From a virus, in the IMG/VR virus record IMGVR_UViG_3300046364_000025, positions 1 to 37,225 of that record: a stretch of 37,225 nucleotides of DNA; one strand, written 5' to 3'. The notes beneath the pieces are model-generated. The model saw only the letters and a list, made by a program, of their open reading frames with translations. It made no database searches and had not been told where the DNA came from. Position 1 is the first letter of the stretch. Each line of letters starts with the position of its first letter. A program made the position numbers and the translations under genes. Of the stretch, positions 1-37,225 are shown piece after piece.

Positions 1-11
1 GAAAATGGGTA

Positions 12-20
12 GGGGGGGGG
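12..20. repeat. Nine-base G homopolymer
   Basis: A run of nine G on the plus strand lies at the left edge of the window, in non-coding DNA. A second run of seven G lies at 1334-1340, so the two bracket the leftward gene 122-892. I noticed no other run of six or more G. A homopolymer at a contig edge can also be an assembly weak point. Confidence 0.9.
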
Positions 21-32
21 TGCCGCCAATCG

Positions 33-104
33 GTTGTTGTTGTTGTTGTATGACAACCATTTAGTTGTTGTAGGGGATTGCTAATTACTCTAACTAACAA
101 TCCC
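33..104. repeat. GTT microsatellite and inverted repeat downstream of the leftward gene
   Basis: Positions 33-49 are a tandem GTT run of about five and a half units. Positions 74-80 (GGGATTG) and 98-104 (CAATCCC) form a perfect 7-base inverted repeat with a 17-base loop. The repeat lies just past the stop of the leftward gene at 122, so it could end that transcript, but no U-run follows it on the minus strand and it is not a standard intrinsic terminator. Confidence 0.5.
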
Positions 105-121
105 TTTCCACTTCCACAAAC

Positions 122-892
122 TTAAATAAAGTCTTCCAAGTCTCCTTCATTAGCACGATTAAACAATTCATTCTTTAACTGAATTACTGCTCCTAAGTTG
201 CTACTAAGTTCCGTATCCGTTACATGACTAAAAATTCCCGCTAACGTATCTAACTGTTTCTCAGTAGGAATCATTTGCTCTATAGTTAACAACATTTTAA
301 TGGTTTGCATAATCTTTTTAGCGGATTCAAAGGAAATAATTTTCTTAACATCATCCCTAGCATAACTAATCATTGCTTCAATCAAACTAGTTTCAATCAA
401 TTTAAAGTACTCACCAGTGAAACTGATAGCTTTCCGAGTTCTACTTCTAGCCATAGTAGCGAACTCTACACAATCTAGCAGCTCTAATTTAATTACTTTA
501 CTTTGTGCATTGTAAGCAGCGTTAGCCATTTCTTTATAAGTAGCGTAGAACGTATCTTTAAGGTAAGTAATGACCTTAGAATCCACATTACTATCGACAT
601 CAACGTTTTCCAGAATGAACTCAATCAAGCCCTTAGTATCAATGGCTTTAACATTTACGGCAAAATCTACCTTATCTTTAGAACTAGTAATTAACTTAGC
701 ATTAACTAACTCTTTCTTTTGTTCAGGTGTCAGTCTATAGTAATTAGCCTTAGTAGTGATACCGCCTTTAGTGCTGCTGCCTATTTCCAAGGTAGCGCCA
801 ATAACTAATTGTCCTAAGCCAATATTGCTAATATCGTTAGCGTTAACTTCCGTATTGTTAACCTCTGTGCTTGCGTGTAATGAATCAACCAT
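122..892 (-). CDS. Hypothetical early protein, 256 aa
   Basis: I do not recognise this family. The frame is also open from an ATG at 925, but the ATG at 892 is chosen because AAGAAGAGGA lies about ten bases upstream of it, whereas the 925 start has no ribosome site. The predicted protein is soluble, mostly helical after residue 90, without membrane segments. It ends in an acidic tip with an aromatic residue (GDLEDFI), a type of tail also seen on single-stranded-DNA-binding proteins, though that alone does not assign a function. It is the only leftward gene left of the terminase genes and has its own promoter-like -10 box and structured leader. Leftward transcription would continue towards the replication block if the genome is circular or permuted, which suggests an early gene. 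Confidence 0.8.
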   Translation of the reverse strand: MVDSLHASTEVNNTEVNANDISNIGLGQLVIGATLEIGSSTKGGITTKANYYRLTPEQKKELVNAKLITSSKDKVDFAVNVKAIDTKGLIEFILENVDVDSNVDSKVITYLKDTFYATYKEMANAAYNAQSKVIKLELLDCVEFATMARSRTRKAISFTGEYFKLIETSLIEAMISYARDDVKKIISFESAKKIMQTIKMLLTIEQMIPTEKQLDTLAGIFSHVTDTELSSNLGAVIQLKNELFNRANEGDLEDFI

Positions 893-918
893 GATATATA
901 ATTCCTCTTCTTGAAAAT

Positions 919-969
919 AGAGCATAATTGCTCTGTTAACTAACTAACCTATTTAATTAGCTAACAGAG
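919..969 (-). promoter_or_regulatory. Structured leader with two overlapping inverted repeats
   Basis: Positions 919-934 are a perfect 16-base palindrome (AGAGCATAATTGCTCT). Overlapping it, 931-943 (CTCTGTTAACTAA) pairs with 957-969 (TTAGCTAACAGAG) at 12 of 13 positions around a 13-base loop. Both lie between the -10 box at 972-977 and the start at 892, so the two hairpins would be mutually exclusive in the leftward leader RNA. They could instead be an operator. Which of these applies is inference. Confidence 0.5.
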
Positions 970-971
970 AT

Positions 972-977
972 ATTATA
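972..977 (-). promoter_or_regulatory. Leftward promoter, -10 box
   Basis: The minus strand reads TATAAT at 977-972, a perfect sigma-70 -10 hexamer, about 80 bases ahead of the gene start at 892. No good -35 element is seen at 16-18 bases, so the promoter may be weak, activated, or not real. It points away from the promoter at 1463-1468. Confidence 0.4.
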
Positions 978-1468: not shown

Positions 1469-1497
1469 ACGCGGAAGCCTATGAAAGAATCCATCCT

Positions 1498-2237: not shown

Positions 2238-2243
2238 CTTAAC

Positions 2244-3737
2244 ATGGAACTGCCAGCCGTTGTAGAACAAACAGTTTCCGCTAGTGTAGATAGGGCTGGC
2301 ATTATAAATGCTATGCGCACTAACTTAGACGCGTTCGCTAGTGTAGTTATGCCAGAGGATTTTAAGTTTGCATATCCGCCTTACTACCATGCTCTGTTTG
2401 ACGAATTAGTAAAAACACAGAGTATTCCTCGTAACTTTGCTAAATATGCTTTAGGCTTTCCACGAGGTTTTGCTAAGACTACCTGGATTAAACTATTTGT
2501 GGTCTATCTAATCATCTTTAGCCAGAAACGATTTATCTTAATCACTCTAGCTACTGACCGCATGGCGGAAAACTTTCTTAGCGACGTGGCAGATATGCTA
2601 ACGGGAGACAATGTAGTTTCTTTATTTGGCGACTGGAGACAGAACTGCGGCAAGAACACTTTAACAGATAAAGAGTTTAGCTTTGCTGGGCGTAAGTTAA
2701 AGCTTGCAGCTATGGGCGCTGGTAGTAGTTTGCGAGGTATTGTTAGAAATAACAAACGCCCAGACATACAACTAATGGACGATATTCAAACCAGAGAAGA
2801 TGCTGACAGTGACTTAAGCAGTGAAAAGTTATTTAACTGGATGCTAGGTACCTTACTTATGACTCGTAGCCCATTTGGCTGCCAGCATATCTTTGTTGGT
2901 AACATGTATCCTACTGAAAATTGTATACTTAAAAAACTTCGGGACAGTAAGGACTGGACAAGCTTTATTACAGGAGCTATTTTAGCTAACGGTGAGAGCC
3001 TTTGGCCTGAGCTACACCCTGTAACCGACCTTTACGACGAACTAGAAGGCTTGATGCGCTTAGGTAAAGACGCAATCTTTATGTCTGAAAAGATGAACGA
3101 CCCAACTCCCCAGCTTAAAGCATCCTTTGACCAGTCTAAAGTAGCAGTTCTTGACTTTGCTGACGAAGTGCATCAAGGTAATTTTGTAATTATTGACCCT
3201 TCTGGCCGTAAAAAGACTAGCGATAACACAGTAATAGGTTATTTTGAAATTTACGACAACAAGCCGCACTTAGTATCCTTACTTAATGAAGTTTTTACTC
3301 CTAAGCAAACAATCTCTGCCGCACTTGGGTTGTGTAGCAAGCATAGATGTGTAACTATTGTGTCAGAATCCGTAGCTTACCAAGAAACTTTATTATTTTG
3401 GTTTGAAGAAGCCTTAAGAGCGCTTAAAGTTACGCATATTACATTGATTCCAATTACTCCTAAAGGCGTATCTAAGAATTCTCGTATTTTAACAATGCTT
3501 AAACAACTACAAAGTAAGGAAGTCTCCCTGCATCCTAGAGTTCTTAGCGAAGTTATCAATCAAATCTACAAATTTAACCCTAAGAAGACTGATAACGTAG
3601 ACGACGTACTAGATATAGTAGCTTACGCACCACGTGTTGTGAATGAATATGGACTAATGATAGCTATCCCGGATGTGGACTCGGAAGAATACCTAGAAAT
3701 AGGTGTTGCTCCCGAACACGAAACTTCTGCAATTTAA
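2244..3737 (+). CDS. terL: Terminase large subunit
   Basis: This is the packaging motor and headful or site-specific nuclease that pumps DNA into the prohead through the portal. The ATPase domain has the Walker A variant GFPRGFAKTT at residues 71-80 and Walker B LMDD at 177-180, followed by a GN coupling-type motif at 219-220. The C-terminal RNase H-like nuclease carries D318 (VIIDPSG), E375 (VSESVAY) and the acidic cluster D453/D454/D457 (NVDDVLD). At 497 aa it has the usual length. It starts six bases after the preceding stop and is followed directly by the portal gene, the usual order. All catalytic residues seem intact. Confidence 0.95.
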   Translation: MELPAVVEQTVSASVDRAGIINAMRTNLDAFASVVMPEDFKFAYPPYYHALFDELVKTQSIPRNFAKYALGFPRGFAKTTWIKLFVVYLIIFSQKRFILITLATDRMAENFLSDVADMLTGDNVVSLFGDWRQNCGKNTLTDKEFSFAGRKLKLAAMGAGSSLRGIVRNNKRPDIQLMDDIQTREDADSDLSSEKLFNWMLGTLLMTRSPFGCQHIFVGNMYPTENCILKKLRDSKDWTSFITGAILANGESLWPELHPVTDLYDELEGLMRLGKDAIFMSEKMNDPTPQLKASFDQSKVAVLDFADEVHQGNFVIIDPSGRKKTSDNTVIGYFEIYDNKPHLVSLLNEVFTPKQTISAALGLCSKHRCVTIVSESVAYQETLLFWFEEALRALKVTHITLIPITPKGVSKNSRILTMLKQLQSKEVSLHPRVLSEVINQIYKFNPKKTDNVDDVLDIVAYAPRVVNEYGLMIAIPDVDSEEYLEIGVAPEHETSAI

Positions 3738-3754: not shown

Positions 3755-5614
3755 ATGATTAAACTAACTGAAAAGCAAGAAAAAGCTTTAATGTCTCTAT
3801 ACACAAAAGCGGTAAGCGGAATTACCCAGACTAACTTAAGTGCTACCTATATGGAAGCTAGAGACGCTACCTTTGCACGCTGGAAGAAGGTTAAGCAAGA
3901 CTCTACAGTGCAAGATAACAAGTCTGAGTTTGTAGTTCCTTTAATTATGTCTCAGGTAGATTCTGCCCGGGCTAAGCTAACTAATATCTTTTTAACTCCA
4001 GAACCTATTTTTGAAGTAGTAGCTCCTCCTTCTTTACAAGAAGTAGCTAACCAATACACTGCTATTTATGAAGCTGATAGCCAACACTTTGGGTGGAAAT
4101 CTGAATTATCTGTAGCTTTTTTAGACGGGCTTAAGTATAATAAGTTAGCAGTGGAAGCTGTGTGGGATACAGAAAGTACTTACTCGGCGGCTACCTTAGC
4201 TGAAGCGCCAGCAGGTACTAAGTTACCAGAGACTGAAATTATCTGGCAAGGTAACAAGCTTAAACGCATGGACATGTACAATACGTTCTATGACACTAGC
4301 GTAAGAACTAAGGATATTCATAAAGAAGGAGATTTCGCAGGCTATGTAGAGTTATATAGCCCAACTAGACTGCATCGTTTATTAGATAAACTAGATATCC
4401 CAGAGGCCAAACGTAAAGAAATTTACGAAGACTGCGGGTTATCGAATAAAACCTATGTAACTCCTAATATTGCAACCGCAGGCATGCGAGTTACTGCAGA
4501 AGACTCTGCAATTTACTTTGACTTAGACGAACATGAAATTAAGAGTGCTAGTTCTCGCTATCGTAAGCAAGGTATGTACGAAATTACCAAACTATACCTT
4601 CGCATTTTACCTAGTGACCTGGAATTAACAGCTACGGCTGGAATAATTAATCCTAAACAGCAGTGTATGCTAGAGATATACATTGTAAATGGTATTAAAA
4701 TTATTTCTACTTCACAGCTAAGCAACAAACACAACTACTTACCTATTGTGTTTTGTCAACTATTGGACGAAGGTATTGGTGACCAAGCTAAGTCGTTTAA
4801 CCACAACTTAGAAGAGCTCCAAGAAGTTGCTACGATGTTGATTACTACTGAGATTAAAAGTAATCGTCGTATGCTAACAGACCGAGGTATCTACGACCCT
4901 TTCTTAATTAACAAACGGGACATTAATTCACCTAATCCTTCCGCTAAAATTCCACTACGAACATCTGCTATTGGACGTAGTTTACAAGAAGCTTACTACG
5001 CCATTCCTTATGAAGACCGAGCACTAGGCAGTAGGATTCAGCAGACTGGTAGCTTACTAAGCTTTGGCAATGATATCTCAGGATTGAATAAAGTTGATAG
5101 TGGGCAGTTTGTCAAGGGCAATAAAACCAATGACCAGTTTAGCGAATCTATGGCTGCTAGTGGACAACGTTTATTAGCTTTGGCGCTTAACCTTGAAGAT
5201 AGTTTCTTTCTTCCTCTTAAAGAAATTACCCGCAGTAACATTATTCAGTTTCAACCTGTAGATAAAATACTGAGTCAGATAACTAAGACAGAAGTTACTA
5301 TCTCTCCATCTGAGTTAAAGAAGTTAATTCCTAGTTTTAAAGTTGCAGATGGACTAATCCCCGCTGACCGCATAGCAAATTCTGAGCTTATAATAACGGC
5401 TATCCAGACAATTTCTACTTCACCTGAATTGTCTATGCAATACAACGTAGCTGATATGACTGTGCATCTTTTAGGTGTAAAAGGCTTACGAGACTTAAGT
5501 AAGTTTAAATTTACTAAAGAAGAAGCCGCAGCTAAACAACAACAAATGCTAGCTCAACAACAGGCACAACAAGGAAACCCTAGTGAACAACAGCAACAAC
5601 AAGCAGCAACCTAA
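3755..5614 (+). CDS. Portal (head-tail connector) protein, podovirus type
   Basis: The portal forms the dodecameric ring at one capsid vertex, through which DNA enters and leaves. The call rests on length (619 aa), position between the large terminase and the scaffold, and the general pattern of podovirus portals: a helical N-terminus with a FVVPLIMSQVDSA-type segment near residue 65 and a C-terminal helical region. The last 35 residues are very Gln-rich, encoded by CAA/CAG runs at about 5530-5612, as in some long-barrel portals. The next gene starts inside this Gln-rich tail in another frame. No single motif proves the family. Confidence 0.85.
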   Translation: MIKLTEKQEKALMSLYTKAVSGITQTNLSATYMEARDATFARWKKVKQDSTVQDNKSEFVVPLIMSQVDSARAKLTNIFLTPEPIFEVVAPPSLQEVANQYTAIYEADSQHFGWKSELSVAFLDGLKYNKLAVEAVWDTESTYSAATLAEAPAGTKLPETEIIWQGNKLKRMDMYNTFYDTSVRTKDIHKEGDFAGYVELYSPTRLHRLLDKLDIPEAKRKEIYEDCGLSNKTYVTPNIATAGMRVTAEDSAIYFDLDEHEIKSASSRYRKQGMYEITKLYLRILPSDLELTATAGIINPKQQCMLEIYIVNGIKIISTSQLSNKHNYLPIVFCQLLDEGIGDQAKSFNHNLEELQEVATMLITTEIKSNRRMLTDRGIYDPFLINKRDINSPNPSAKIPLRTSAIGRSLQEAYYAIPYEDRALGSRIQQTGSLLSFGNDISGLNKVDSGQFVKGNKTNDQFSESMAASGQRLLALALNLEDSFFLPLKEITRSNIIQFQPVDKILSQITKTEVTISPSELKKLIPSFKVADGLIPADRIANSELIITAIQTISTSPELSMQYNVADMTVHLLGVKGLRDLSKFKFTKEEAAAKQQQMLAQQQAQQGNPSEQQQQQAAT

Positions 5615-6753: not shown

Positions 6754-8403
6754 ATGTCAACTCTTGGACTTTTTAACACAACTAACTGGGCTCCTAATCA
6801 ACTTGAGAAGAGTTTTAACTCTCGCTTGCTGACTAAATATCCAGGTACTCCTGCTATGCTTACAGCGCTGTCTGCTAAGTTTAAATCTCAAAACATTTCT
6901 AGCCATCGTCACCACTGGGCTGGTAAGTCTATGGTATTCAGCCGAGGGGCTATTACAGCACCTGTTGCAGCTGCAGCTACTGGCGCTCAAATGCAGATTA
7001 GTGTAGATGACTCAACTACTTTTGTTCCAGGTGCTGTAGTTTTAGTTAATAGCACTGATGAGCAAATGCGAGTTATGTCTATCGCAGGACCTAACTCTAT
7101 CATCGTTCGTCGCGCATTTGGTATTAGTCCAGGCTTGCCTATTGCAGCTGGCGCAATGATTTGGCAGATTGGTAACGCTTACGAAGAAGGCAGCTTGCGT
7201 CCGTTAGCTAAGAGCTACAGCTATGAAGAGTGGGATAATATTACCCAAATTTTCCGTAACTCTTGGGCATTGACTGGAACTGTGCACGCTGAAAATCCAA
7301 TGACTGGGGCTAAAGTAGCTGTTACTAGCAAAGCAGAAGCCGCCAGCTTCCACGCGATTGAAAAAGAAATGGCTATGATTTGGGGCGAGCGTCACTCTAG
7401 CTTTGAAGGCGGCCAGCCATTACGTAAGATGGACGGTATCATTAGCCAGATTAAGCAACATGCTCCTAGCAACATTCGTTACGCAGCCAGCACAACTACT
7501 TTCGAGCAGTTAGGTAATATGGTTAATGGTGTATTCGATGTGTCCACTGACATGACGATGGAAAATGACCGTTTGCTGCTAGTAGGTAACAAAGCGTACT
7601 CAGTTCTTAACGCATTGGGTCGTGAGTATGGTATCTTGCAGACTAACATGCAGACTACTAAGTTTGGTATGCAGTTCTCTGAGTTCCAGACAGACGTTGG
7701 TAACTTTAAAATCTTGAAGCATCCATTGTTTAACGTGAACCCTGAGTGGTCTAGCATGGCTTTGGTTGTTGACCCTAGCTCGCTGGAACTTAATTATCTA
7801 CGCCGCACACGGCACCACACATTTAACGCCGATGTTAATGACGAAGGTAACTACGATGGCGATACTGGCCAAGATGCGCATGGTGGTGATTTCCTTACGG
7901 AGTTTACACTTGCAAACATGGTGCCAGAAGCTAATGCTGTTATCTACGGTTTGTGTGAAGCTGCTAAGAAAATTATGGTTGCTGCTCCTGTCACCTTCTC
8001 TGCTTGTTTGTCTATTAGCAATCCTTGCGACTTGGGCGCTGTGGATGGGGGTGCTGTAGTTATCTTGGCTGTGCAAGGTTATGTACCAAGCGTTAACGTT
8101 AGTATCGCTAGCCCAACGGGTACTTTGTTGCCAGTGACTATCGATGCTAACGGTAATGGTACTGTGCAATACACAATGCCTGTTACTCCTGGTACTTACG
8201 CATTCGCTATTGTACCTGGCGCTAACAACGTAACTTGGACTAGCCCAGTTGTCGTTGCTTGTGTTAAAGATTGCTTGGCAGTTAAAGTAGAGTCTAACTC
8301 TGCTGAAGTTGACCCAATGCAAGGTGTTACCTCAGCAACTTTGATGGAATCTCTTAATAGCCCAACTGACATTATCACTGGCGTAGGCTCCGTTCAAAGC
8401 TAA
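6754..8403 (+). CDS. Major capsid protein with C-terminal Ig-like domain
   Basis: The product (549 aa) forms the icosahedral shell. Its first ~400 residues resemble the DUF5309/SU10-like HK97-fold capsid group, with the EEGSLRPLAKSYSYEEWDN and TQIFRNSWALTGT stretches near residues 147-180 followed by a charged helix (EKEMAMIWGERHS). From about residue 412 a beta-rich, Cys-flanked Ig-like domain follows (CLSISNPCDLG to VVACVKDC), with the PGTYAFAIVP pattern typical of such folds; it is probably exposed on the capsid surface. AAGG precedes the start. A strong terminator follows directly, which would favour high production from a separate short transcript. Confidence 0.85.
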   Translation: MSTLGLFNTTNWAPNQLEKSFNSRLLTKYPGTPAMLTALSAKFKSQNISSHRHHWAGKSMVFSRGAITAPVAAAATGAQMQISVDDSTTFVPGAVVLVNSTDEQMRVMSIAGPNSIIVRRAFGISPGLPIAAGAMIWQIGNAYEEGSLRPLAKSYSYEEWDNITQIFRNSWALTGTVHAENPMTGAKVAVTSKAEAASFHAIEKEMAMIWGERHSSFEGGQPLRKMDGIISQIKQHAPSNIRYAASTTTFEQLGNMVNGVFDVSTDMTMENDRLLLVGNKAYSVLNALGREYGILQTNMQTTKFGMQFSEFQTDVGNFKILKHPLFNVNPEWSSMALVVDPSSLELNYLRRTRHHTFNADVNDEGNYDGDTGQDAHGGDFLTEFTLANMVPEANAVIYGLCEAAKKIMVAAPVTFSACLSISNPCDLGAVDGGAVVILAVQGYVPSVNVSIASPTGTLLPVTIDANGNGTVQYTMPVTPGTYAFAIVPGANNVTWTSPVVVACVKDCLAVKVESNSAEVDPMQGVTSATLMESLNSPTDIITGVGSVQS

Positions 8404-16489: not shown

Positions 16490-17563
16490 ATGAGCTGTTG
16501 CCCTCCTAGCGCAGATTGCATCCAATGCCCTATTATTGTTAGTTGCATTCCTAACTTAATACTGCCTCCTGGACAACTACAATTCTGCCCAGATGCTTGC
16601 AAGTTCTACTACGATTGCGCAGGAGTTAAAACTTGCTTGAATCCAACGTATGGTCTTGGCTTACGTATGACTGAGAATTGCATATTGCAAGTAGGCCTAG
16701 CTCCTGGCCGTCCGTTAGTGTTTGATGACGCTGGCAATATTGATATTGATTGTGCTACGCTAATCGCGTGTTGCAATCTTGTTAACCAAAGTCAGCTTAA
16801 TACTGTAGTAACTAATATTTACAACACATTCCAAGCTGCCATTACTAATATTCAGCAGCCCAAGCAATGTGATGGAGTAACTACCTTAACTAGTGCTAAT
16901 GCCGTTTACCAAGTTGGTAGCTTGAAAAAGTCAACTGCAACTGGAGATGCGAACTTAGCTTGTGGGGATAGAGTTGTACTATGGGGCGACCTAATGAAAT
17001 GTATTGATGGAATTTTAACGCCATTAGTACGCGGGGACATTATTGTTACGCAAGCTACTTGCGAGCCTATAGTAGTGCCAGTAGGTAGCCCACCCGTTGG
17101 CTCTCCGCCAGTAGGTAGCCCTCCGGTAGGTTCTCCTCCTGTTGGTAGCCCACCAGTAGGTGGAGGTTGTTGTGACCTAAGTAATAGTGGCCCTAAAAAC
17201 TACATAGATAATTATACAAATAATGTGTATACTGGCGGAAGTGCTCCTGTCTGGGCATTTAGTTATGCTTGTGCTCTTAATGCATATATACCATTTGCCA
17301 TTGCTGTAGTTGCAGGTAGTTTACCTCCAGGTTTATCGGTTAATGGAGTTGACCCAAATTCTGATGGAAGCAATAACTACTATTTCCAAGGCTTTAGTGG
17401 AAGCTTGGTCGTGCCAGCTGTCACTACTACTTATAACTTTACAGTTAAAGTTGCACCTTTCGATATAAACAGTGCTTGCTATTCGTTAGCTGACATTGCT
17501 TATACAGTTAATGTAACTACTACAGCGCCTCCAGTTGGAGTTCCTCCTGGCGAAGGTGGTTAG
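16490..17563 (+). CDS. Cys-rich protein with five VGSPP repeats and an Ig-like (He_PIG type) C-terminus
   Basis: A 357-aa protein in three parts. Residues 1-190 are Cys-rich (CCPPSADCIQCPIIVSC at the start). Residues 198-222 are five perfect tandem VGSPP units followed by VGGG, an extended linker. Residues 225-347 form a beta domain with VVAGSLPPGLSVNG, the hallmark stretch of putative Ig (He_PIG) domains, and end in a Pro/Gly tail (PPVGVPPGEGG). It probably projects from the virion as a fibre or decoration. It lies between the holin candidate and a 2-oxoglutarate dioxygenase gene; its Ser-Pro-Pro repeats are plausible substrates of that enzyme. Confidence 0.6.
   Translation: MSCCPPSADCIQCPIIVSCIPNLILPPGQLQFCPDACKFYYDCAGVKTCLNPTYGLGLRMTENCILQVGLAPGRPLVFDDAGNIDIDCATLIACCNLVNQSQLNTVVTNIYNTFQAAITNIQQPKQCDGVTTLTSANAVYQVGSLKKSTATGDANLACGDRVVLWGDLMKCIDGILTPLVRGDIIVTQATCEPIVVPVGSPPVGSPPVGSPPVGSPPVGSPPVGGGCCDLSNSGPKNYIDNYTNNVYTGGSAPVWAFSYACALNAYIPFAIAVVAGSLPPGLSVNGVDPNSDGSNNYYFQGFSGSLVVPAVTTTYNFTVKVAPFDINSACYSLADIAYTVNVTTTAPPVGVPPGEGG
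17081..17155 (+). repeat. Five tandem 15-base units encoding VGSPP
   Basis: Five in-frame 15-base units each encode Val-Gly-Ser-Pro-Pro. The units differ at most synonymous positions (Val as GTA or GTT, Ser as AGC or TCT, Pro as CCA, CCC, CCG and CCT) while the peptide is identical. That pattern argues for selection on the protein repeat, not a recent DNA duplication. Confidence 0.95.
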
Positions 17564-18748: not shown

Positions 18749-18753
18749 CTAAG

Positions 18754-26600: not shown

Positions 26601-28718
26601 GAAAGCCGTAGTGTTGAGCAGTTCTTTGCAGACACTAGAGACTGGCATATGCGTAATGAGTTAGCTGTGCAACGTAATATGATTGCTATGAAACACGCTG
26701 ACGAGTTTGTTAGCCTTCGTGCAATTTCTTACCAAGAAGCTGCTGCCCGTGATAGTGGTATTGTTAAGCAGAACAGCATTCAACAGTATCTTGACAAAGG
26801 TAAGCCTACTCCGGCTGAACAAGTTATTAATCAACTGCTGGCGGTACAAAACCCAGGTGTAGTTAACGGCATGTTACGGTTTATAGATGAAGGGGGTAAC
26901 AAGTTCCTTAGCCCTGTGTTTGACGCAGTTAAGTCTGTGTTTAACAAGAAAGAAACTGCGCTGGACTTGGAAGCTTTAACTAAGACTTACGAGAAGTTAG
27001 GTATTGAGAAGAGCTACCAAGAAGCTATCTACAAAGCTAGTAACAAAACTGTAGGAGAAAACTCTGCTTTTGACAAAGCTGTCCGTAATAGCAACATGGT
27101 GTTGGTTACTGGTCAGCTACGGTTAGACGGACTAAACACTATTGTTAATATTATTGGCAGTCCAATCTTAGGCAGTAGTGTAGTTGGCTTAGCTATTAAA
27201 GACGTAGGTAACCGTATTGCTACTCCTGAAAGCCAAGCAATGTTTGCTAAAGCTATCGGCGTAGGCGAAGCAGGGTTCACTGGTAACTCAGTTAACTTTG
27301 TTAAGCTAGCGCACAAGTCTGTCTACCGTGATACAATGCTGGCTAAGGATAGCTTGCTTAAAGATTTTGCCAGTAATGACAAAGAAACTTTAGTACAGTT
27401 GTATAACCGCTTAGGCATTACTCAGTCAGGTGCTGAAGCTGTAAGGCAGGAAAGCCAAGTTGCTATGCTAGACATTATCAGGTCTGGCGAAATGCAGAAC
27501 AGCAGTAAGCTTAGCGAAGTACTAAAGAAAACTATTAACTTTGTTGCTAAACCTAGTGACTTTGTTGAAGGTAAATTACAGTTCTTAGCAGCCGATGCTG
27601 GATTGCAGATTGCCGAAGCCGCTAAGGAAGCTGGGCATGTAATGGCTCCTAGTGATATCTTGAGTTTGATGAATACTATCACGCAGAAGTTGCATGGTAA
27701 CTATACAGCTAGCCAACGTCCTCAGTTGTTCCAAGGTACAGTAGGTGCTGCTGTTGGTTTATTCCAGAGCTATCAAGCTAGGTTAGTGCATCGTGTGTTA
27801 GATGTTATTGACAGTGGGGACAAACGTATGCTGGCAGAAATGGCTGCGCTACAAGCTGGCATCTTTGGCGCTAAGTCTCTGCCAGGGTTCAATGCTATTA
27901 ACACGCATTTGGTAGCGGAGAACAACAAGGATAAGCAGGATATTTATTCTGGCTTGTTTGACTCTACTAACAGAGCAATGGCAGAAGGTATGTTGTACGG
28001 AGTAGGTAGTTCTATGCTTGGGCTTAACTTGTCCACGCGTGGTGCTGTAGACTTTAGAACCCCTAACAATATTACTGAAGTCCCTAGTGTCGCAATCTGG
28101 AAAGGAATGATTGGGCAGGTTAGTGATTTTGTTACGCAGTCAGCTAATGGTGCGGACTTATCTGCCACGTTTAGCCATGCTGTACAACACAATGTGTTCA
28201 ACCGTCCTGTACAACAGTTAGCTGCTGTTATGTCAGGCTACAGTACAACAATGTCTGGCAAGGAAGCTGTTAACATTCATGATAATAAGTTTCAACATCC
28301 TGACGATTGGATGCCACACTGGGCTACACAAACTATGCGTATGCTCGGAGGTAAGCCACTGGACGAAGCAGTTTACTTAGATACAGTGTTCCGCTTTAAT
28401 AACTATCGCTTGCAGGATAGAGAGAAAACACTGGAGCTAGGACAAGCTGTTATGTCGCATATGCGTGACCCTGATAATGAGATAACTCCTGAACAAAAGA
28501 AACAGTTTGCACAACAGTTCGTTAACAGAGGCGGCACACTAACTGGCTTTAACAACTGGTATAAAAATCAGCTAAGCAATTCTACTACTGATGCTGGTGA
28601 GCGACTAAGGAAGATGGTTAAAAATTCCGAGGAAGCTAAGCAGTTGAGTAAGATGCTAGGCGGCAAGGTAGAAATGATACCTGAAGCCGAACGTGATATG
28701 GAAGTTAATGTCAAGTAA
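23685..28718 (+). CDS. Giant internal virion (ejection) protein, 1677 aa
   Basis: The largest gene of the window; its size, place and composition fit the giant internal core protein of podoviruses that forms the channel for DNA entry. The N-terminal 250 residues contain hydrophobic Ala/Gly-rich stretches that may insert in membrane (VAASLVPGTIGIKALRMGMG; LAAAGATVGVVETLAFNTAA; FGSIAGGLLGSSV). The rest is mostly Lys/Glu/Ala-rich helix with a few globular parts. Near 1380-1460 is a more hydrophobic helical part (GTVGAAVGLFQSYQARLVH) like the C-terminal parts of T7 gp16-type proteins. No enzymatic motif is seen. It is the last gene of the rightward block and is followed by a bidirectional terminator. 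Confidence 0.75.
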   Translation: MALDKNNPFMPSADQYSGIGAAAQAHDMVASGGILDGIVEFGTQTLPTFASATVVNVLNIPHDLAEIPYSLVTGDKLDSGKVDLSNVLGNLDSSLNTDLEDYYSKHKEGIDMSSYVAASLVPGTIGIKALRMGMGTTAAATASEAGLVGRAIGTFEGLGAKSLQTAKLEVLKGSPFSYLSREALNLAAAGATVGVVETLAFNTAATLALHSSPYLDKKDAWELAKDAVTDSLYFGSIAGGLLGSSVKEAGAVGLLGFRQTLKPYKGQIDSLAREADNIGGAAQSLEAGLPFTAKVGKGKLTPKEATLSGGDLAMSIKDNLDNLKAADSLDDFALLERKGLLSKDPVFREAEWRKFVADKDASITKQERLLESKVKELFADVSEVVGVSQLVKSISSSSIEKAGALLAGLKKLHPATDLALENLEKVRAAGRTSQTVVMDLKTNTVVNKPAGASIFDLPKAEQVTKVANAKVVPFTEASLADGSLTGMSGSIMYKKALEETGQTAGSLTAKSAGFNFTLEKDLALIDVLANKAATLHPELKIKVAGVERTVDEAIKLVAERKIDLIAEGAASGKSVEELSAMLHMPDAKVMKPDLIGMTNELAKKEGQSPRYLLAEYDKLVRPTSVNRFLAEGSLDFKARIKLVAEERELSLNKMFAEGMAFGKLPISDFKGSGAAGVLKFADASWGDGFQQKLQTLTRLYAKLMNDAAGTRLAAIDTPAEHVLAGGKTSTAYAEMAGVTTWLETSLARGQGANLWLAPNGNSYVVQRNLVTEAVNSLKAETAAAKKAAEAGQQFQGSGAKSVAEMLDVMIGSRLKAGITREQDFVQLTTAETKNYFLTHASLDALSLKNSNELRRLQGGAQVNPGYTEPELLSLYMPGPNKAKNPFALIVKGSDNHQNPAYAGQTKVFTFKDAKELLAAKSTAIADGLEAYTAKESKDFFKDIEKFDNSLSFNGSSLKNELVSKHKMFASAPESRSVEQFFADTRDWHMRNELAVQRNMIAMKHADEFVSLRAISYQEAAARDSGIVKQNSIQQYLDKGKPTPAEQVINQLLAVQNPGVVNGMLRFIDEGGNKFLSPVFDAVKSVFNKKETALDLEALTKTYEKLGIEKSYQEAIYKASNKTVGENSAFDKAVRNSNMVLVTGQLRLDGLNTIVNIIGSPILGSSVVGLAIKDVGNRIATPESQAMFAKAIGVGEAGFTGNSVNFVKLAHKSVYRDTMLAKDSLLKDFASNDKETLVQLYNRLGITQSGAEAVRQESQVAMLDIIRSGEMQNSSKLSEVLKKTINFVAKPSDFVEGKLQFLAADAGLQIAEAAKEAGHVMAPSDILSLMNTITQKLHGNYTASQRPQLFQGTVGAAVGLFQSYQARLVHRVLDVIDSGDKRMLAEMAALQAGIFGAKSLPGFNAINTHLVAENNKDKQDIYSGLFDSTNRAMAEGMLYGVGSSMLGLNLSTRGAVDFRTPNNITEVPSVAIWKGMIGQVSDFVTQSANGADLSATFSHAVQHNVFNRPVQQLAAVMSGYSTTMSGKEAVNIHDNKFQHPDDWMPHWATQTMRMLGGKPLDEAVYLDTVFRFNNYRLQDREKTLELGQAVMSHMRDPDNEITPEQKKQFAQQFVNRGGTLTGFNNWYKNQLSNSTTDAGERLRKMVKNSEEAKQLSKMLGGKVEMIPEAERDMEVNVK

Positions 28719-29079: not shown

Positions 29080-29275
29080 AGTTAGCTGGATTAGTTAATT
29101 GAAAAACTTCAAACTGTTCATACCATTCATCCATAGTTAACGCAGTAGGCCAGTCTGGTTTCCAATTGTTGCAAAAGGCTTCTATACATTTTTGTAGCTC
29201 AAGCTTAGCTTCTTCTAAGGTTAGCATAGTTACTTTAGTTGGATAAAAATTATATAGTCCCATATTGTTGCTCAT
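29054..29275 (-). CDS. Hypothetical small protein, 73 aa
   Basis: I do not recognise a family. The protein is acidic with aromatic residues (EAFCNNWKPDWPTALTMDEWYEQF near the middle, split by Pro). Three starts are possible: ATG at 29275 (GGGAG is only one base away), ATG at 29263 (GGGAG at about 13 bases) and ATG at 29227 without a site. The longest form is listed. It overlaps genes on both sides. Confidence 0.5.
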   Translation of the reverse strand: MSNNMGLYNFYPTKVTMLTLEEAKLELQKCIEAFCNNWKPDWPTALTMDEWYEQFEVFQLTNPANYEQSSSST

Positions 29276-30509
29276 TCTCCCATAGGGTTTTCATGTTGCA
29301 ATGTAAGCTTTCGTTTCCTCCAGGCTTAGGTTTTTTGTGCACGTAAGTCATTCCTGCCCGTGTAGCTTGTAGTCTATCAGCTGCAACAAGGTTCATGATA
29401 ATATCCTTACATTCTTTTAAGTCCCTTACATCTGTAGCTACAGCTTTGTAAATTTCGTCTACTTGTATTAATGCACTAGGATGGTTCTTAACTGTATCTA
29501 AAATTCTCCCTACCACTGGACTAGATTTACTTAGCCCGTGTTCTCCTAATGCATCTGGCATATGCCGCTCAGCAAAAGTAAGAATGGTATTAGCTTCTAT
29601 AACATATTCTTTAGTTACTAAAACTCCGCCATAACTGGCAGCTATCACGATACATAACTTTAACAACTGCCGATAGCGGCGACTTCCGTAGCTAGCAAAT
29701 CTACTATCTTCAATGTTATGCCAATTTTCATATATATCTTTAAGGATACTCTTAGCTCCAGCAGTTATAATAATTTCACCTTCCAACTTGCTCACTTGCA
29801 CTAGCTTGCCGACTAGGTTTTTGATTAAGCTAGGGTCTGGGGTCTCAGGCCAATAAAGTTTCTGCCTAATTTTACCCGAGTTAATAACTAAAGTCCTACT
29901 CACTAAGCCTTGATTCAATACGTTAGCTGGGAAAGCTGCTGCGAATCCATCTGCTGTATTACCCGCTAGAATATTAAGCAACGGATTAATGATTGCTACC
30001 TTCTTCCCGTGCTTAGGTCTATACTCAAAAACACCAGTGTAATCCCAGAGATTAGCTAAGCTAGTGTACATGCCAATATTGTTCAACCCAGCAAAGTCAT
30101 TAAATTCGTCAGCAATTACTGTGTAGTTAGTGCTGATTTTCTCTAAGTCTGGTGGGTCTAATAATCCTGCTAGATAACTGTCCCTTGTGTCCTGGTCAAC
30201 CATACTAGCAAAGTCTTCGAAAAATTGTTCACGACTTGTAGCCGCTGCTGCTAGGTTAACGTACTTGGCCTCCTTTAATAATTTAGCTGCATACTTAATA
30301 GCAGTTGACTTACGGCTACCCGCAGAACCTACTATCATGATGTAAAAATTAGGGTACACTTTTGTGCCCCCAAAATTAATATACACTTTATCTCCAAGCA
30401 AGCTAGCAATCGTACTAATTGCAGCCCACCTGTGACAAATCCTAGCAGACTCTGTAGCTTCTACCGCGCGGAAGTAGTCCTTAAACAGAGATTGGCTAAA
30501 TAACGACAT
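29250..30509 (-). CDS. Replicative helicase-like P-loop ATPase (DUF3987-like)
   Basis: A 419-aa ATPase with Walker A GSAGSRKST (residues 61-69), Walker B VIADE (131-135), a sensor-type Asn in LAGNT (181-185) and a probable arginine finger in GLVSR (R205). The C-terminus (about 330-390) looks like a winged helix (ILDTVKNHPSALIQVDEIYKAV). This matches DUF3987-like ATPases placed in phage replication regions, thought to act as helicases. No primase zinc or TOPRIM domain is present. It overlaps the exonuclease gene by 49 bases and belongs to the leftward replication block. Helicase activity is inferred from family-like architecture and neighbours. Confidence 0.65.
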   Translation of the reverse strand: MSLFSQSLFKDYFRAVEATESARICHRWAAISTIASLLGDKVYINFGGTKVYPNFYIMIVGSAGSRKSTAIKYAAKLLKEAKYVNLAAAATSREQFFEDFASMVDQDTRDSYLAGLLDPPDLEKISTNYTVIADEFNDFAGLNNIGMYTSLANLWDYTGVFEYRPKHGKKVAIINPLLNILAGNTADGFAAAFPANVLNQGLVSRTLVINSGKIRQKLYWPETPDPSLIKNLVGKLVQVSKLEGEIIITAGAKSILKDIYENWHNIEDSRFASYGSRRYRQLLKLCIVIAASYGGVLVTKEYVIEANTILTFAERHMPDALGEHGLSKSSPVVGRILDTVKNHPSALIQVDEIYKAVATDVRDLKECKDIIMNLVAADRLQATRAGMTYVHKKPKPGGNESLHCNMKTLWENEQQYGTI

Positions 30510-31087
30510 TGGTCTTCGTACCTTATTTCTATGTTGTAAGCTGCGGCTACTATTTCTATATTGTGCATTGCATCGACTAATGCGTTATGATTATTGAGAG
30601 GGGCAGGGGTGGCAGATTTAATAGAAGGTATAGAGTGTAAAGTACGAATGTCATGGTGGCATCGGTAGTTAACTGCTAGTGGGTCAAAATTATAGCAGAA
30701 ATTCTTCAAGATAGGTAAGTCAAAGTGCCCACGTGTAAAGTATTCTTTAGCTTTAAACTCGTCGCGTAACTTATGGTCTACTACAGACCGATGCTGGTCT
30801 AAAGTTAAGTCACTACTTTGGTTGGGTAAGTTGTATAAATCTCTACCACTAGAACTGTGCCACCAGTCAATTGTGCTAGCCTCAATGCGAAACTGGGTAT
30901 CTACAGAATAGAGTCTGGCTGGAATGTTGTACACTTCAGCAGCTAAGATAGTAAGAAATTGTTTATCTTTAGTAAACAAAATCATTCCTACTTCAACAAC
31001 GGCAGCGTTACCACTTGTGCTTAGTGTTTCAATATCTAAACTAAGACATCGGTCTAATTCGCTAGGAATACTATGCTGCTTAATCAT
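30461..31087 (-). CDS. DEDDh 3'-5' exonuclease (DnaQ/RNase T-like)
   Basis: The 208-aa protein has all exonuclease motifs: Exo I D18 and E20 (LSLDIET), Exo II D123 (GHFDLPIL) and Exo III H167 and D172 (NNHNALVDAMHN). The His in Exo III places it in the DEDDh branch, unlike the polymerase's own DEDDy domain. The HHDIRTLHS stretch near 144-152 is like small phage and Rv2179c-type exonucleases. It starts in an ATGA overlap with the small membrane protein upstream. A role in trimming recombination or replication ends, or in RNA decay, fits. The polymerase next door seems to carry its own proofreading domain. Confidence 0.85.
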   Translation of the reverse strand: MIKQHSIPSELDRCLSLDIETLSTSGNAAVVEVGMILFTKDKQFLTILAAEVYNIPARLYSVDTQFRIEASTIDWWHSSSGRDLYNLPNQSSDLTLDQHRSVVDHKLRDEFKAKEYFTRGHFDLPILKNFCYNFDPLAVNYRCHHDIRTLHSIPSIKSATPAPLNNHNALVDAMHNIEIVAAAYNIEIRYEDQCRYLANLCLRTTSAR

Positions 31088-31293
31088 GCTATAAACCTCC
31101 AGAGAAGATAGGACAGGAATAGTCCTAAGTTAATGAACACCCAGCCCCATGCCATAGCACGTAGGTAACTGCAACACTCGCAGTCCAGGCGGCACAGTTG
31201 AATAAGCTTACGGTAAAACCAGCCGTTCTGGTACACGCAAGGGTTTAGTAAGACTAGCTGCACAATTAGTTTATCTTTAAAGGACATAGTCAT
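31084..31293 (-). CDS. Small Cys-containing membrane protein, 69 aa
   Basis: A basic N-terminal half with several Cys (CRLDCECC near residues 34-41) is followed by one strong membrane segment at about 44-68 (AMAWGWVFINLGLFLSYLLW). It is coupled by ATGA overlaps to the polymerase gene upstream and the exonuclease downstream, so it is clearly expressed with replication genes. ATG at 31287 is an alternative start. A membrane anchor for replication or a host-takeover protein are guesses. Confidence 0.6.
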   Translation of the reverse strand: MTMSFKDKLIVQLVLLNPCVYQNGWFYRKLIQLCRLDCECCSYLRAMAWGWVFINLGLFLSYLLWRFIA

Positions 31294-33569
31294 TTCCAGG
31301 TTAGTTTAGGTTTATCTGCTTCAAAAGGAATCTTTAGTATTCTACCATGAACTTCGATAGGTTCGTTCATGAGGGATTCTACTATAGGTAAGAGCTTATG
31401 TATTTCCGTAGTTCTTACTTGTATCAATAAGCTGTCGTGAATTTGCGCGCATAATCTAAAGTTAGTTTCGTTGCGCAGTTCTTTATTACTATGGATACGC
31501 AGGATAGCTCTGTTAATAAGTGCAACCGAAAGATTTTGACTTGGGTGCGCAACGTATTTGTTAAGAGCTGGCTTGCTAGTCATCGGGTCACTAAAGCAAT
31601 ATCTAGTGTAGCCTAACGGACTTACTAGCATGTTGGTAGCTTTAATCTGTAGTATGAGTTCACCATAATAAGTGTTGTCATTTATCAGATGCTTAACTCC
31701 ATTAGTGTGAAACTTTTCATTTACATAGTTCGTACCTTTCAGGCGTGGGTAGGTATTGCAGAAGCCTACTAACAAATGCCTAGCAATTTGTTGTAACCCG
31801 TAGGGGTCAGGAAGTTTAAGTAAAGCCTTAGCTTGCCATAGATTCTTCTCGCCCATAGTAGAGATTAAAACAAAGTCCCCCATGTTATAGTTAGCGCCGT
31901 GGTTAGTACGCTTACTCAGGTCACGGATACTGAAGGTATGATTTTTCTTAGCTTCCTTAGCTTCGGCTACAATGTAATCAAAGTCTAAGCCAAAGAACTT
32001 AGAAGCATTGTGACTATGAAAGTCTGGAGAGTTTTCAACTGCATCTATTAGGGCTAAGTCCTGTGCTAAGTAACCAGTAGTTCTACTCTCTGCTTGACTG
32101 TAATCAATCTCTAAAATAGAAAATCCTTCATCAGCATCCACGAAAACTTTAGCTTCTACTGGAACGTTCTGGATTTGAAATCCATAAGATACATAACTAG
32201 GCTTTCTACCAGTTCCCCAATATTCGTTAAAGTTAAAGTGGCTACCGCTGCTGCTGAATCTGCCTGACTCTGTGCCCCAAGGATTAAGACTGTAATGCAG
32301 TCTGCCGTTAAGTAAGTTGACCAATGCATAGTTACTGTGGAACTTTAAGTTCTCTCTGTAGGTGGTTAGCTGAAAACCAAGGATACTGTTGAGTGGGTGC
32401 TTAGAGCTAAAGGCTACTGTAGCTTTAGCATCGGTAGAGTCTAGTTCCTTAGCGCCATAGATATGAAACAAGGTAAGAACCTGCTTAGGACTTCCAGGAT
32501 TAAAGTTAACATTGTCTGCCATTATAGCTAGGCGTCTGCGACTGACCTCAATATTTTCTCTTGCTTTTACTTCAAGTTCAGAAAGCTTTTCTTGATTAAC
32601 TTTAAGACCTCGCATGCCCATAAGTAAGCAGCAAAACTGCAAAGGAAAAGTGTGGCTGTAATTAATATAAGCCCAATCAGGCATTTCCAACAGTAAGCTA
32701 ACACACGCATGTAGAGTAAAGAAACTATCACGCGCATTGTAGCGTAGAAATTCGTGCCTGTCTCCAACCTTGTCGTCTTTCCAGAACTCAGCATCTTGTA
32801 ATGCAAACGCTGCAATAAAGTCAAGTCGTCTAGGTAGTTCTGCATACCAACTATGAAACAAACCCATAGTATCAAGTAGATAATTATAAGGAATAATTCC
32901 GTACCGTAAGAGATAAGTAATGTCATACTGTCCATTCTGAAAAATCTTAATAGCGGCTGTTGTTCCTAGTGCAGTACGTAGCCATTGCACATTAGATAAG
33001 GAAGTGAACTCCAAGACATAAGTTTTTGTTATTCCTAGCTTAGAGTTATATCCAGCTAACGCAATACAACTAATGCTTAGTTCTTTACCTGGAGTTTCAA
33101 TGTCTGCAGCTATTAAACTACACTGCATAAGGAAGTGTATGGCTGCCTTAGCTTCTATAGAATCCTTGGCTAAGTCTAGTATCTGCCACGTGAACTGCCC
33201 TGCTTTGTAAAAACTATCCGGATTAAGAAGCTTACGAAGAAAACGCTTAGCCAGAAAAGCGTAAGTATCAACAGTTCTATAATGCTCAAAAGGATTAAGC
33301 ACCAATACGTTACCTTCGATAATTGTTCCGTAAAAGTCATTGATAGTAGCTTTGCGCGCACCGATTTTATCTGCAAGAAACTTTGGGCAAGTAGTAATGT
33401 ATAAAGCGCACGGAGCTTCTGGGTTAAGAATGAAATCATAGGTGTCTTTATAAGCTACAAGCAAAGGGTGTATCAGCAGTGCGTACTTTTTATCTTCTAG
33501 TGCTGGAACCACGCCTACTCTGATTAAAGGTTTTTTAGTAACTAAGTATGTGCTTGTGTCTAGTTTCAT
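31290..33569 (-). CDS. Family A DNA polymerase with 3'-5' exonuclease domain
   Basis: This is the replicative polymerase (759 aa). The exonuclease domain has D156 and E158 (AADIET), D216 (QNGQYDITYL) and Y277/D281 (RYNARDSFF), all intact. The polymerase domain has TESGRFSS (433-440), QNVP (467-470), motif A with D489 (EIDYSQAESR), motif B R549/K553/H557/Y561 (IRDLSKRTNHGANYNMG) and motif C 711-713 HDS (QIHDSLL). Motif B has His at the position of T7 Tyr526 or E. coli Phe762, and motif C has Ser where Glu is usual. The catalytic Asp residues are present. It starts in an ATGA overlap. A thioredoxin-binding loop is not evident. Confidence 0.95.
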   Translation of the reverse strand: MKLDTSTYLVTKKPLIRVGVVPALEDKKYALLIHPLLVAYKDTYDFILNPEAPCALYITTCPKFLADKIGARKATINDFYGTIIEGNVLVLNPFEHYRTVDTYAFLAKRFLRKLLNPDSFYKAGQFTWQILDLAKDSIEAKAAIHFLMQCSLIAADIETPGKELSISCIALAGYNSKLGITKTYVLEFTSLSNVQWLRTALGTTAAIKIFQNGQYDITYLLRYGIIPYNYLLDTMGLFHSWYAELPRRLDFIAAFALQDAEFWKDDKVGDRHEFLRYNARDSFFTLHACVSLLLEMPDWAYINYSHTFPLQFCCLLMGMRGLKVNQEKLSELEVKARENIEVSRRRLAIMADNVNFNPGSPKQVLTLFHIYGAKELDSTDAKATVAFSSKHPLNSILGFQLTTYRENLKFHSNYALVNLLNGRLHYSLNPWGTESGRFSSSGSHFNFNEYWGTGRKPSYVSYGFQIQNVPVEAKVFVDADEGFSILEIDYSQAESRTTGYLAQDLALIDAVENSPDFHSHNASKFFGLDFDYIVAEAKEAKKNHTFSIRDLSKRTNHGANYNMGDFVLISTMGEKNLWQAKALLKLPDPYGLQQIARHLLVGFCNTYPRLKGTNYVNEKFHTNGVKHLINDNTYYGELILQIKATNMLVSPLGYTRYCFSDPMTSKPALNKYVAHPSQNLSVALINRAILRIHSNKELRNETNFRLCAQIHDSLLIQVRTTEIHKLLPIVESLMNEPIEVHGRILKIPFEADKPKLTWK

Positions 33570-35296: not shown

Positions 35297-35331
35297 AATA
35301 GGTTAGTGTTTAGGTTATAAAGTGTTAAAGG

Positions 35332-35369: not shown

Positions 35370-35390
35370 ACTTACATAACTAACGTTGGC

Positions 35391-35840
35391 TTAGATAACT
35401 TCGAGCTTGGCGATAACCAAGTTCTTGTACTCTTTACCTTCGTTCTCGCCTGAGCCTTTGCTCTCTTTGTACTTAAACGTAACTGCTACGTTCAGGTCTT
35501 TAGTAGCTTCAATAATCTCAGAGATTTTACCGGAAGTACTTAGTGCAGCTTTGAACTGTTTAAGGTGTGGCTTCATGAAGCCCAAGCCTTGCTCAGTATA
35601 GCCATACAGTACGCCAAACTTTTGCCCAACAACGTGAGGATTGTCAAGCTCTTGTGTGCCCAATTGCTTAGTTTCAATAAGCTTGAAGTCAAAGCTAACG
35701 TACTCTTTGTCTTTCAAGGTTTTTTGAGCCAAGCTAAGAGCACAAACGTATTCGCCACTAGGAGGCGTATCAAAACCTGGTAGGTCTTCGATATCATCTA
35801 AGTCTAAGTCTGGCATTTGATTCATTGATTGTTCTGACAT
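35391..35840 (-). CDS. Putative single-stranded-DNA-binding (OB-fold-like) protein
   Basis: The 149-aa protein has an acidic N-terminus (DLDLDDIEDLPGFD) followed by a beta-rich domain (GEYVCALSLAQKTL, EYVSFDFKLIETKQL, KFGVLYGYTEQG) and a final strand pair (YKNLVIAKLEVI), consistent with an OB-type or DUF669-like fold. In phages carrying Sak4-type ATPases an SSB is often encoded nearby, and the Sak4-like gene lies three genes upstream here. No canonical SSB tail is seen. The start lacks a clear ribosome site. Confidence 0.5.
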   Translation of the reverse strand: MSEQSMNQMPDLDLDDIEDLPGFDTPPSGEYVCALSLAQKTLKDKEYVSFDFKLIETKQLGTQELDNPHVVGQKFGVLYGYTEQGLGFMKPHLKQFKAALSTSGKISEIIEATKDLNVAVTFKYKESKGSGENEGKEYKNLVIAKLEVI

Positions 35841-35873
35841 GGTAGTAATGTTTCTATATAAATGTTAAAGGTT

Positions 35874-35909
35874 GTTAAAAAGATAGGGAGATTGTGATAG
35901 CTTTTTAAC
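35874..35909 (-). other. AT-rich inverted repeat between leftward genes
   Basis: GTTAAAAAG (35874-35882) and CTTTTTAAC (35901-35909) form a perfect 9-base inverted repeat with an 18-base loop in the 107-base gap between leftward genes. It may be a weak terminator, an RNA processing signal or an operator. It has no GC-rich core and no long U-run. Confidence 0.4.
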
Positions 35910-35947
35910 CTAGGCTTGTGGCTTTGGTCTAACTAAGTTATCAGTAG

Positions 35948-36184
35948 TTAGGTTTCTGGGAAGTCTGGAGCTTGCACTACATCTTTTATACGGGCTTTCC
36001 AACTTTCTGAATCTCTCCAGTTAGGGAAAGTTTCTTCATCTGGCGGAGTAGGGTCTAATGTAACGCTTAGGTAGCCATTAGCCAGCGCAGTCTTGCGTAG
36101 CATTTCAACTTCTGTTTCGTTGCGTACAGCATAAGATTGCCAAATCATACCACCTACAGTGTTTCTAATGTACAAGCCTTTCAT
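35948..36184 (-). CDS. Hypothetical small protein, 78 aa
   Basis: I do not recognise a family. It starts in an ATGA overlap with the upstream gene. The product is a small mixed alpha/beta protein (GMIWQSYAVRNETEVEMLRK) with an acidic, Trp and Pro-containing C-terminus (PPDEETFPNWRDSESWKAR). No motif gives a function; it belongs to the replication and recombination block by position. Confidence 0.65.
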   Translation of the reverse strand: MKGLYIRNTVGGMIWQSYAVRNETEVEMLRKTALANGYLSVTLDPTPPDEETFPNWRDSESWKARIKDVVQAPDFPET

Positions 36185-36375
36185 ACTGTTTCACACGCCA
36201 ATCCTGTTGCGTACATAGCAAGCTCTTTGAAGCTAAGATGTTCCATAAGAACTTCGTCGTCTTCGTCGTCTTTACCTTGTACTAATTGAAACGCATTGTC
36301 GTCAATATCGTAGTGAGCTTCTTGGTTTTGCAGTTCTAACTGCTGTGCTATGTCTAGCATATTAATTAACATCAT
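36181..36375 (-). CDS. Hypothetical acidic protein, 64 aa
   Basis: I do not recognise a family. The protein is strongly acidic in the middle (GKDDEDDEVLMEH) with flanking helices. Size and charge would fit a DNA-mimic or protein-binding early protein, but this is inference. AAGGA lies about eleven bases before the first ATG (36375); the second ATG is in tandem at 36372. It is coupled at its end to the next gene. Confidence 0.6.
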   Translation of the reverse strand: MMLINMLDIAQQLELQNQEAHYDIDDNAFQLVQGKDDEDDEVLMEHLSFKELAMYATGLACETV

Positions 36376-36377
36376 GA

Positions 36378-37175
36378 TTAAACAATTCCTTTATTGTAAA
36401 TAAGTTGCAAGGGTGAATAGAGCTTGTTAACTTCTTCCGTCTTAACATTAAGCCTACTACCAGTAAGTACATTAGGTACTTTACCTGGGCCTGAGCTAGC
36501 TACGAAGGAACCACCGCGTTGCTCTGTGTAAACCACGGTGTCGAAGTACTTACTGGTAGTCACTGCGAACTTGCTACTACCTGCTACTGGCACAATGCGT
36601 TTCTTACCATCTTCAAACTCAGCTACTTCTTCGTGAGTAATGGCAATGATGTTGCACTGTGCTAACTGTATTACGCTAAACATACGTTCCATATAAGACT
36701 TCATCTTACCCCAGTCGTCAAGTTGATACTTGTAATCGTCTGGCTTGCCACGAGTCACGTAAGCCAAGCAGCTAGTAGTAAGCTGGGTTAAGCTATCTAT
36801 CACTACGATGCGGGCAGGATTTTTCTCTACGATGGAGAACTCTGTGCTAGGTAATTTAGCTTTAATGCAGAAGTCACACTCAGCTTTGCCATGTTCGTCG
36901 CATATAGTAGTCTTAGGCGTAGTCAGCATACGGTAGAGACTTGTAAACATAAGTCCGTTGTCACCATCGTCTGGTAGGCGGAATAGATTTATATTCTCTA
37001 AGTATTCTGGCAGTAAGTTTTCCTTAGAAAGAAATGTACTGCTGCCATTCTCGCCGTCAATGTAGTCTAGTCTGTAGTGCTGGGCTAAGCGGCCAACCAT
37101 ACGTGTCTTACCAGTCTTGGCTGCACCAAATACTACAGTCTTAGAGTAGGGGGATTTTTCGGTAGAGATTTTCAT
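36378..37175 (-). CDS. Sak4-like (RecA/Rad51-type, AAA_24) ATPase with zinc motif
   Basis: A 265-aa RecA-fold ATPase, probably a recombination mediator or annealing factor working with an SSB. Walker A is GAAKTGKT (residues 17-24) and Walker B is IVVIDS with D127. Between them a CxxHx4CxxC set (C92, H95, C100, C103) should bind zinc, a feature seen in several phage AAA_24 proteins. ITHEE near residue 180 follows as a probable sensor. It starts in a TAATG overlap with the gene cut by the window edge. It could also serve in replication; it is not a DnaB-type helicase. Confidence 0.75.
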   Translation of the reverse strand: MKISTEKSPYSKTVVFGAAKTGKTRMVGRLAQHYRLDYIDGENGSSTFLSKENLLPEYLENINLFRLPDDGDNGLMFTSLYRMLTTPKTTICDEHGKAECDFCIKAKLPSTEFSIVEKNPARIVVIDSLTQLTTSCLAYVTRGKPDDYKYQLDDWGKMKSYMERMFSVIQLAQCNIIAITHEEVAEFEDGKKRIVPVAGSSKFAVTTSKYFDTVVYTEQRGGSFVASSGPGKVPNVLTGSRLNVKTEEVNKLYSPLQLIYNKGIV

Positions 37176-37225
37176 TACAGCACGATGGGAGTTTTAATCT
37201 TACGCTTACGAATTACTGGCTGGGG
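37175..37225 (-). CDS. Partial gene at the right edge, C-terminal 16 residues only
   Basis: Reading leftward from the edge, the frame PQPVIRKRKIKTPIVL ends in TAA at 37177-37175, which overlaps the ATG of the Sak4-like gene as TAATG. A basic C-terminus and tight coupling suggest a genuine gene of the same operon, most of which lies outside the window. No function can be assigned. Confidence 0.6.
   Translation of the reverse strand, partial: PQPVIRKRKIKTPIVL

Follow-up and report, generated by a model that had tools for sequence, protein, structure and literature searches.

The 37,225-nucleotide virus DNA examined here (the window, i.e., the whole stretch analysed; positions 1 to 37,225 of the uncultivated bacterial virus record IMGVR_UViG_3300046364_000025 in IMG/VR) contains no GATC on either strand by exact count, the site being a palindrome. 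This absence is due to selected avoidance and not to base composition, and GATC avoidance, which is close to all-or-none with few intermediates among the podoviruses related to the record, has, by the terminase phylogeny, arisen independently on at least five or six occasions in that family.

Absence of GATC from the window

The preliminary description had reported no GATC in 37 kb, as the exact count confirmed, against an expectation of more than 100 sites. The latter figure holds for base composition alone (138 expected) but not for stricter models (~70): a maximal-order (trinucleotide) Markov model predicted 72.6 sites, and synonymous-codon shuffling of 35 genes (300 draws, with protein sequences and codon usage kept fixed) predicted 69.8 ± 6.4 (z = -10.9), the lowest draw having 51. 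Under the Markov model, GATC was the most depleted of the 256 tetranucleotides (z = -8.5), followed by TATA (z = -4.0), and there was no equal depletion of many 4-mers. The gap was therefore specific to GATC, as had been claimed, with only milder depletion (observed/expected) of CCGG (12/33), GGCC (38/70), and TCGA (24/41). GGWCC (7/28) and GGNCC (19/48) were likewise thinned, and CCWGG was normal (46/53.5). Synonymous shuffling also showed AGCT (434 vs. 276 expected) and TTAA (339 vs. 265) to be strongly over-represented and AATT to be low (164 vs. 267).

Codon choice around potential sites carries a clear fingerprint of this loss. Ahead of a codon starting with C, Asp was encoded by GAC 66 times and by GAT never, while elsewhere in the record GAT was the commoner codon (295 vs. 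211 GAC). Following a codon ending in G, Ile was encoded by ATT (73) or ATA (20) and never by ATC, and no GGA, AGA, or CGA codon stood ahead of a TC- codon. GATC sites have therefore been removed in all three frames, largely at synonymous positions. Chance, mutational bias, or codon preference acting without selection on GATC would be in keeping with the mildly low content of ordinary relatives (pooled GATC observed/expected of 0.78), but the finding of zero sites where shuffling gave 69.8 and never fewer than 51, together with normal-count relatives that have gene content and similar G+C in common with the record, leaves this explanation a negligible probability. Indeed, the shuffle and the relatives' counts rule it out, and they bear out the earlier claim of counter-selection against one palindrome.

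Gene content and affiliation of the record

The record carries a podovirus gene set, including genes for the small and large terminase subunits, for the portal, capsid, and tail, and for lysis and replication. On the plus strand, the large terminase subunit (497 aa; 2244..3737; PHROG 38, E = 1.7e-59), upon which the family tree was built, is 33-35% identical to those of Tiera, EBPR podovirus 3, P5, and 119X, and 68% identical to that of locus L001, an 8.5-kb fragment that is the nearest IMG/VR relative of the record. It is followed by genes for the portal protein (619 aa; 3755..5614; phrog_15554, E = 3.4e-57; 69% identity to L001) and the major capsid protein (549 aa; 6754..8403; phrog_1328, E = 2.9e-26). 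Farther along the same strand, a 1677-aa protein (23685..28718) is encoded where 119X and P5 have their giant virion protein, judging from its size and its synteny with 119X gp25 (1849 aa) and P5_0008; a sequence search of viral contigs returned zero homologs of it. The minus strand encodes a primase/helicase-like protein (DUF3987; 29250..30509; phrog_14296, E = 2.1e-60; PF13148), an Rv2179c-like exonuclease (30461..31087; PF16473, E = 1.9e-15; phrog_255), a Family A DNA polymerase (759 aa; 31290..33569; phrog_17, E = 1.6e-58) whose closest described phage counterpart is that of P5 (32% identity), and a Sak4-like AAA ATPase (36378..37175; phrog_124, E = 2e-19; PF13479). The record stops after this ATPase, ahead of where relatives have a helicase gene. 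Since those relatives are 39-46 kb long and carry the helicase gene, absent from the record, near their far end, the record is probably a partial genome.

Several further features lie between the capsid and giant virion protein genes. An ORF at 16490-17563 contains ~5 tandem copies of a PPVGS repeat near its middle, and a 2OG-Fe(II) oxygenase gene (17589-18284; PF13640, E = 2.7e-13) had matches, among described phages, in marine virus contigs only. At 18730-19408, a membrane-anchored ORF and a lipoprotein ORF overlap in different frames, the latter weakly resembling the Rz1-like LysC (E = 0.008); the two are a probable spanin pair.

By terminase and DNA polymerase, the closest described phages are P5, EBPR podovirus 3, Tiera, and the 119X/PaP2 group (28-35% identity). 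The record is a podovirus and distant kin of Pseudomonas phages 119X and PaP2 (Fredfastierviridae), Polaromonas phage Tiera, and Aeromonas phage P5; its terminase and polymerase are homologous to those of 119X, but at 32% and 31% identity. Fredfastierviridae, Tiera, and EBPR podovirus 3 have virion and replication genes in common with the record, but 119X, Tiera, and EBPR podovirus 3 retain normal GATC content (177/231, 154/190, and 135/187 observed/expected, respectively), unlike the record's zero. Aeromonas phage P5 resembles the record in its terminase (34% identity), portal, DNA polymerase, and gene order, and also in having few GATC sites (3/154). However, by the terminase tree it became an avoider independently of the record, and its CCGG, GGCC, and TCGA are not depleted.

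Distribution and origins of GATC avoidance

GATC observed/expected ratios were computed for 113 loci, and the terminase tree includes 89 of these. Most of the relatives in the tree had ratios near 0.8. Ratios of 0 to 0.09 were found at 10 loci in six separate lineages of the tree: the record (0/73) with L001 (0/28); P5; L074/L076 (whole record G007, 0/93); L077/L083/L086 (whole records G009, 0/108, and G008, 0/64); L109 (1/64); and L098 (whole record G010, 12/162). Intermediates were L051 (whole record G005, 63/162) and L052 (8/33). Intermediate avoidance was also seen at L118-L120, from G010, and at L121-L123, from G005; the first 13.5 kb of G010 are GATC-free, and its remaining sites are scattered over the rest.

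Avoiders are scattered among ordinary relatives, and the tree alone gives no direction of change. The low-GATC state required six changes on the tree of 89 loci, which includes P5, and five on a careful tree of 58 terminases without P5 and other long branches; these counts come from the terminase gene only, and loci from one record or from near-identical records are not independent. A single ancestral loss of GATC behind all avoiders was rejected with the 58 terminases (p-AU = 7e-43).

To compare GATC with other sites, we scored the 16 four-base palindromes as purged where more than 15 copies were expected and the observed/expected ratio was below 0.1. By this measure, 10 of 86 loci had purged GATC and 2 of 39, both from a single lineage (L080/L081), had purged GGCC; no locus had purged any of the remaining 14 palindromes. 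GATC is thus the sole four-base palindrome that is repeatedly purged in the family. Other avoidance patterns were observed in individual relatives: L025 (1-15975) had 2 TTAA sites where 20.8 were expected and low GTAC (26/64), and GGCC was nearly gone from L080, L081, and L032 (1/17, 1/16, and 3/18) with GATC normal. The nearest relative of the record, L001, had CCGG at 0/7 and GGCC at 6/17. The thinning of CCGG, GGCC, TCGA, and GGWCC with normal CCWGG suggests extra restriction pressure on the record's lineage.

Phage-encoded enzymes and host searches

Profile searches, whose positive controls matched in E. coli, found no Dam-type (MethyltransfD12, PF02086) or N6_N4 (PF01555) methylase in 23 records, including the probably incomplete record of the window, and no MutH family member (PF02976) in the window and 22 related records. 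Phage self-methylation or a MutH-type nuclease of the phage's own is accordingly unsupported, and the pressure on GATC most likely comes from the host. Another reading of the absence is that a GATC-specific nuclease of the phage destroys host DNA and spares the phage, which lacks the site. Host-DNA degradation is common among phages, and several ORFs of the record have no family match; yet the only nuclease family recognised in the window is that of the Rv2179c-like exonuclease, which lies outside known GATC-specific nuclease families, and independent origins within one family are what changing hosts would give. We therefore consider a phage nuclease very improbable.

Searches for a host gave no convincing link. 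Three metagenome-assembled genomes (MAGs) holding non-avoiding relatives had no MutH and no Dam-type methylase, although these MAGs may be incomplete and their phage contigs misbinned. DNA similarity across 274 genomes of the class of a Coxiella-like MAG yielded marginal matches of 28-50 bases, with no convincing host link or spacer; two segments matched in the Coxiella MAG, in a prophage-like contig that is itself related to the phage. Scanning genomes with a terminase profile returned four contigs from MAGs, and no close relative of the record was among them. Podovirus-family contigs L106, L107, L108, and L109 are binned in MAGs labelled Thermoprotei archaeon, Coxiella sp., Anaerolineae, and a bacterium, and this spread of labels suggests misbinning; among these contigs, L109 is the one avoider.

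Comparison with known GATC avoiders

That virulent phages avoid GATC was already recognised in the 1980s, and the record is a further instance. The enterobacteriophages T7, N4, and phiX174 show similar near-complete losses (T7, 6/141; N4, 1/153 in its first 50 kb), in contrast to Pseudomonas phage LUZ19 (190/250), and T7 and N4 share the codon fingerprint: in ORFs of at least 150 codons, Asp before C was GAT/GAC 2/118 in T7, 1/120 in N4, and 0/65 in the record. Unlike these phages, the record has an absolute zero over 37 kb and an extra, milder loss of CCGG, GGCC, and GGWCC. Staphylococcus phage K likewise has exactly zero GATC (0/112 in its first 50 kb), and zero GGCC as well (0/13.5), but it is a herellevirus of Gram-positive hosts with an unrelated genome. 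Loss of GATC in staphylococcal phages is generally ascribed to Sau3AI-type restriction.

The phiX174 genome has 0 GATC where 20 are expected (PMC5014478). As relayed in that paper (citing McClelland, 1984; Deschavanne and Radman, 1991), this absence takes the phage out of MutHLS repair, and phage yield is lowered in dam- mutH+ cells. When sites were restored to phiX174, its mutation rate fell via MutHLS with no clear growth cost, and the authors concluded that the forces driving avoidance are unclear and may be several (PMC5014478). Among open-access full texts, we found no description of repeated, nearly all-or-none GATC loss within one phage family.

Source of the selective pressure

The preliminary description had proposed that the host has an enzyme acting at GATC, belonging to a restriction or a Dam/MutH system, and this remains the best reading: we infer with high confidence that the host lineage has a GATC-directed endonuclease. 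The single most likely agent would be Dam/MutHLS methyl-directed mismatch repair in a Dam-positive host, to which we give about an even chance. A fast-replicating virulent phage may outpace Dam methylation, leaving its GATCs unmethylated; MutH, activated at mismatches, could then nick or break the phage DNA or otherwise disturb replication and packaging, and mutations removing GATC (mostly synonymous, e.g., GAT to GAC before C) would be favoured until zero sites remained.

The hosts of the described relatives are in line with mismatch repair as the agent. The sole cultured avoider in the family, P5, has an Aeromonas host, and the cultured non-avoiders infect Pseudomonas (119X) and Polaromonas (Tiera); EBPR podovirus 3 is also non-avoiding. 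Aeromonas possesses both Dam and MutH, and Pseudomonas is not known to possess either. The MAGs with non-avoiding relatives, which lacked MutH and a Dam-type methylase, agree with this pattern. The coliphages T7 and N4, with the same codon fingerprint as the record, and the phiX174 precedent also speak for mismatch repair. Moreover, purging of GATC only, in at least five or six lineages, is more readily explained by a widespread cell function specific to GATC than by assorted restriction enzymes. Against mismatch repair, no Dam or MutH was linked to a host of the record's lineage; the record, G007, and G009 retain not a single GATC, whereas some sites often survive where MutH drives avoidance (6 in T7, 3 in P5); the thinned CCGG, GGCC, GGWCC, and TCGA of the record are not explained by it; and phiX174 showed no measurable slowing of growth once 20 GATCs had been added (PMC5014478).

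The main rival is conventional restriction, in which the host lineage would carry a type II enzyme that cuts GATC (Sau3AI/MboI/DpnII type, or DpnI of type IIM) and a virulent phage would have escaped by losing all its sites. This is a serious candidate, which we rate at somewhat less than an even chance. Loss to exact zero is as in Staphylococcus phage K, and the thinning of CCGG, GGCC, GGWCC, and GGNCC in the record, with CCGG and GGCC also low in L001, is as in restriction-rich hosts. Orthodox type II sites are nearly completely lost in ~1/10 of viral genomes, and GATC was under-represented in 46 of 46 phages whose hosts encode type IIM systems (PMC6286503). However, the family purges almost GATC alone (six lineages vs. 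one for GGCC and none for GCGC, CCGG, CATG, GTAC, TCGA, and others), mixed restriction systems would be expected to hit the other four-base palindromes more frequently, and no restriction system for GATC was linked to a host. Either a Dam/MutH host or a GATC-restricting host can produce the observed loss; GATC-only purging across the family favours the former, and the exact zero with extra thinned palindromes favours the latter.

GATC might instead be avoided as a binding site, e.g., for SeqA sequestration or Dam-dependent host regulation, and not as a cutting site, but we regard this as improbable. SeqA binds best to paired sites, and removal of every site regardless of position exceeds what interference needs. 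In its favour, a sea-ice study proposes that a Psychromonas prophage, in which GATC is mildly depleted, thereby avoids regulatory interference (PMC12570018).

Implications for the podovirus family

The record adds a clean case in which an uncultivated phage lineage has lost every copy of a site, and its lack of GATC gives a simple host clue for an orphan phage genome. More useful is the comparative set, comprising within one family at least five or six purging events along with intermediates. With hosts assigned, this set would bear on the long-standing question of whether Dam/MutH or restriction is the driver: under Dam/MutH, avoiders should be found in dam+ mutH+ hosts irrespective of the restriction systems present there. 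We advance only tentatively, as a possibility with perhaps a one-in-three feel to it, that complete GATC loss in this family, nearly all-or-none and repeatedly evolved, reports the Dam/MutH status of the host. If so, GATC loss could place uncultivated phages in host groups, and the rate of site purging after a host switch would become measurable.
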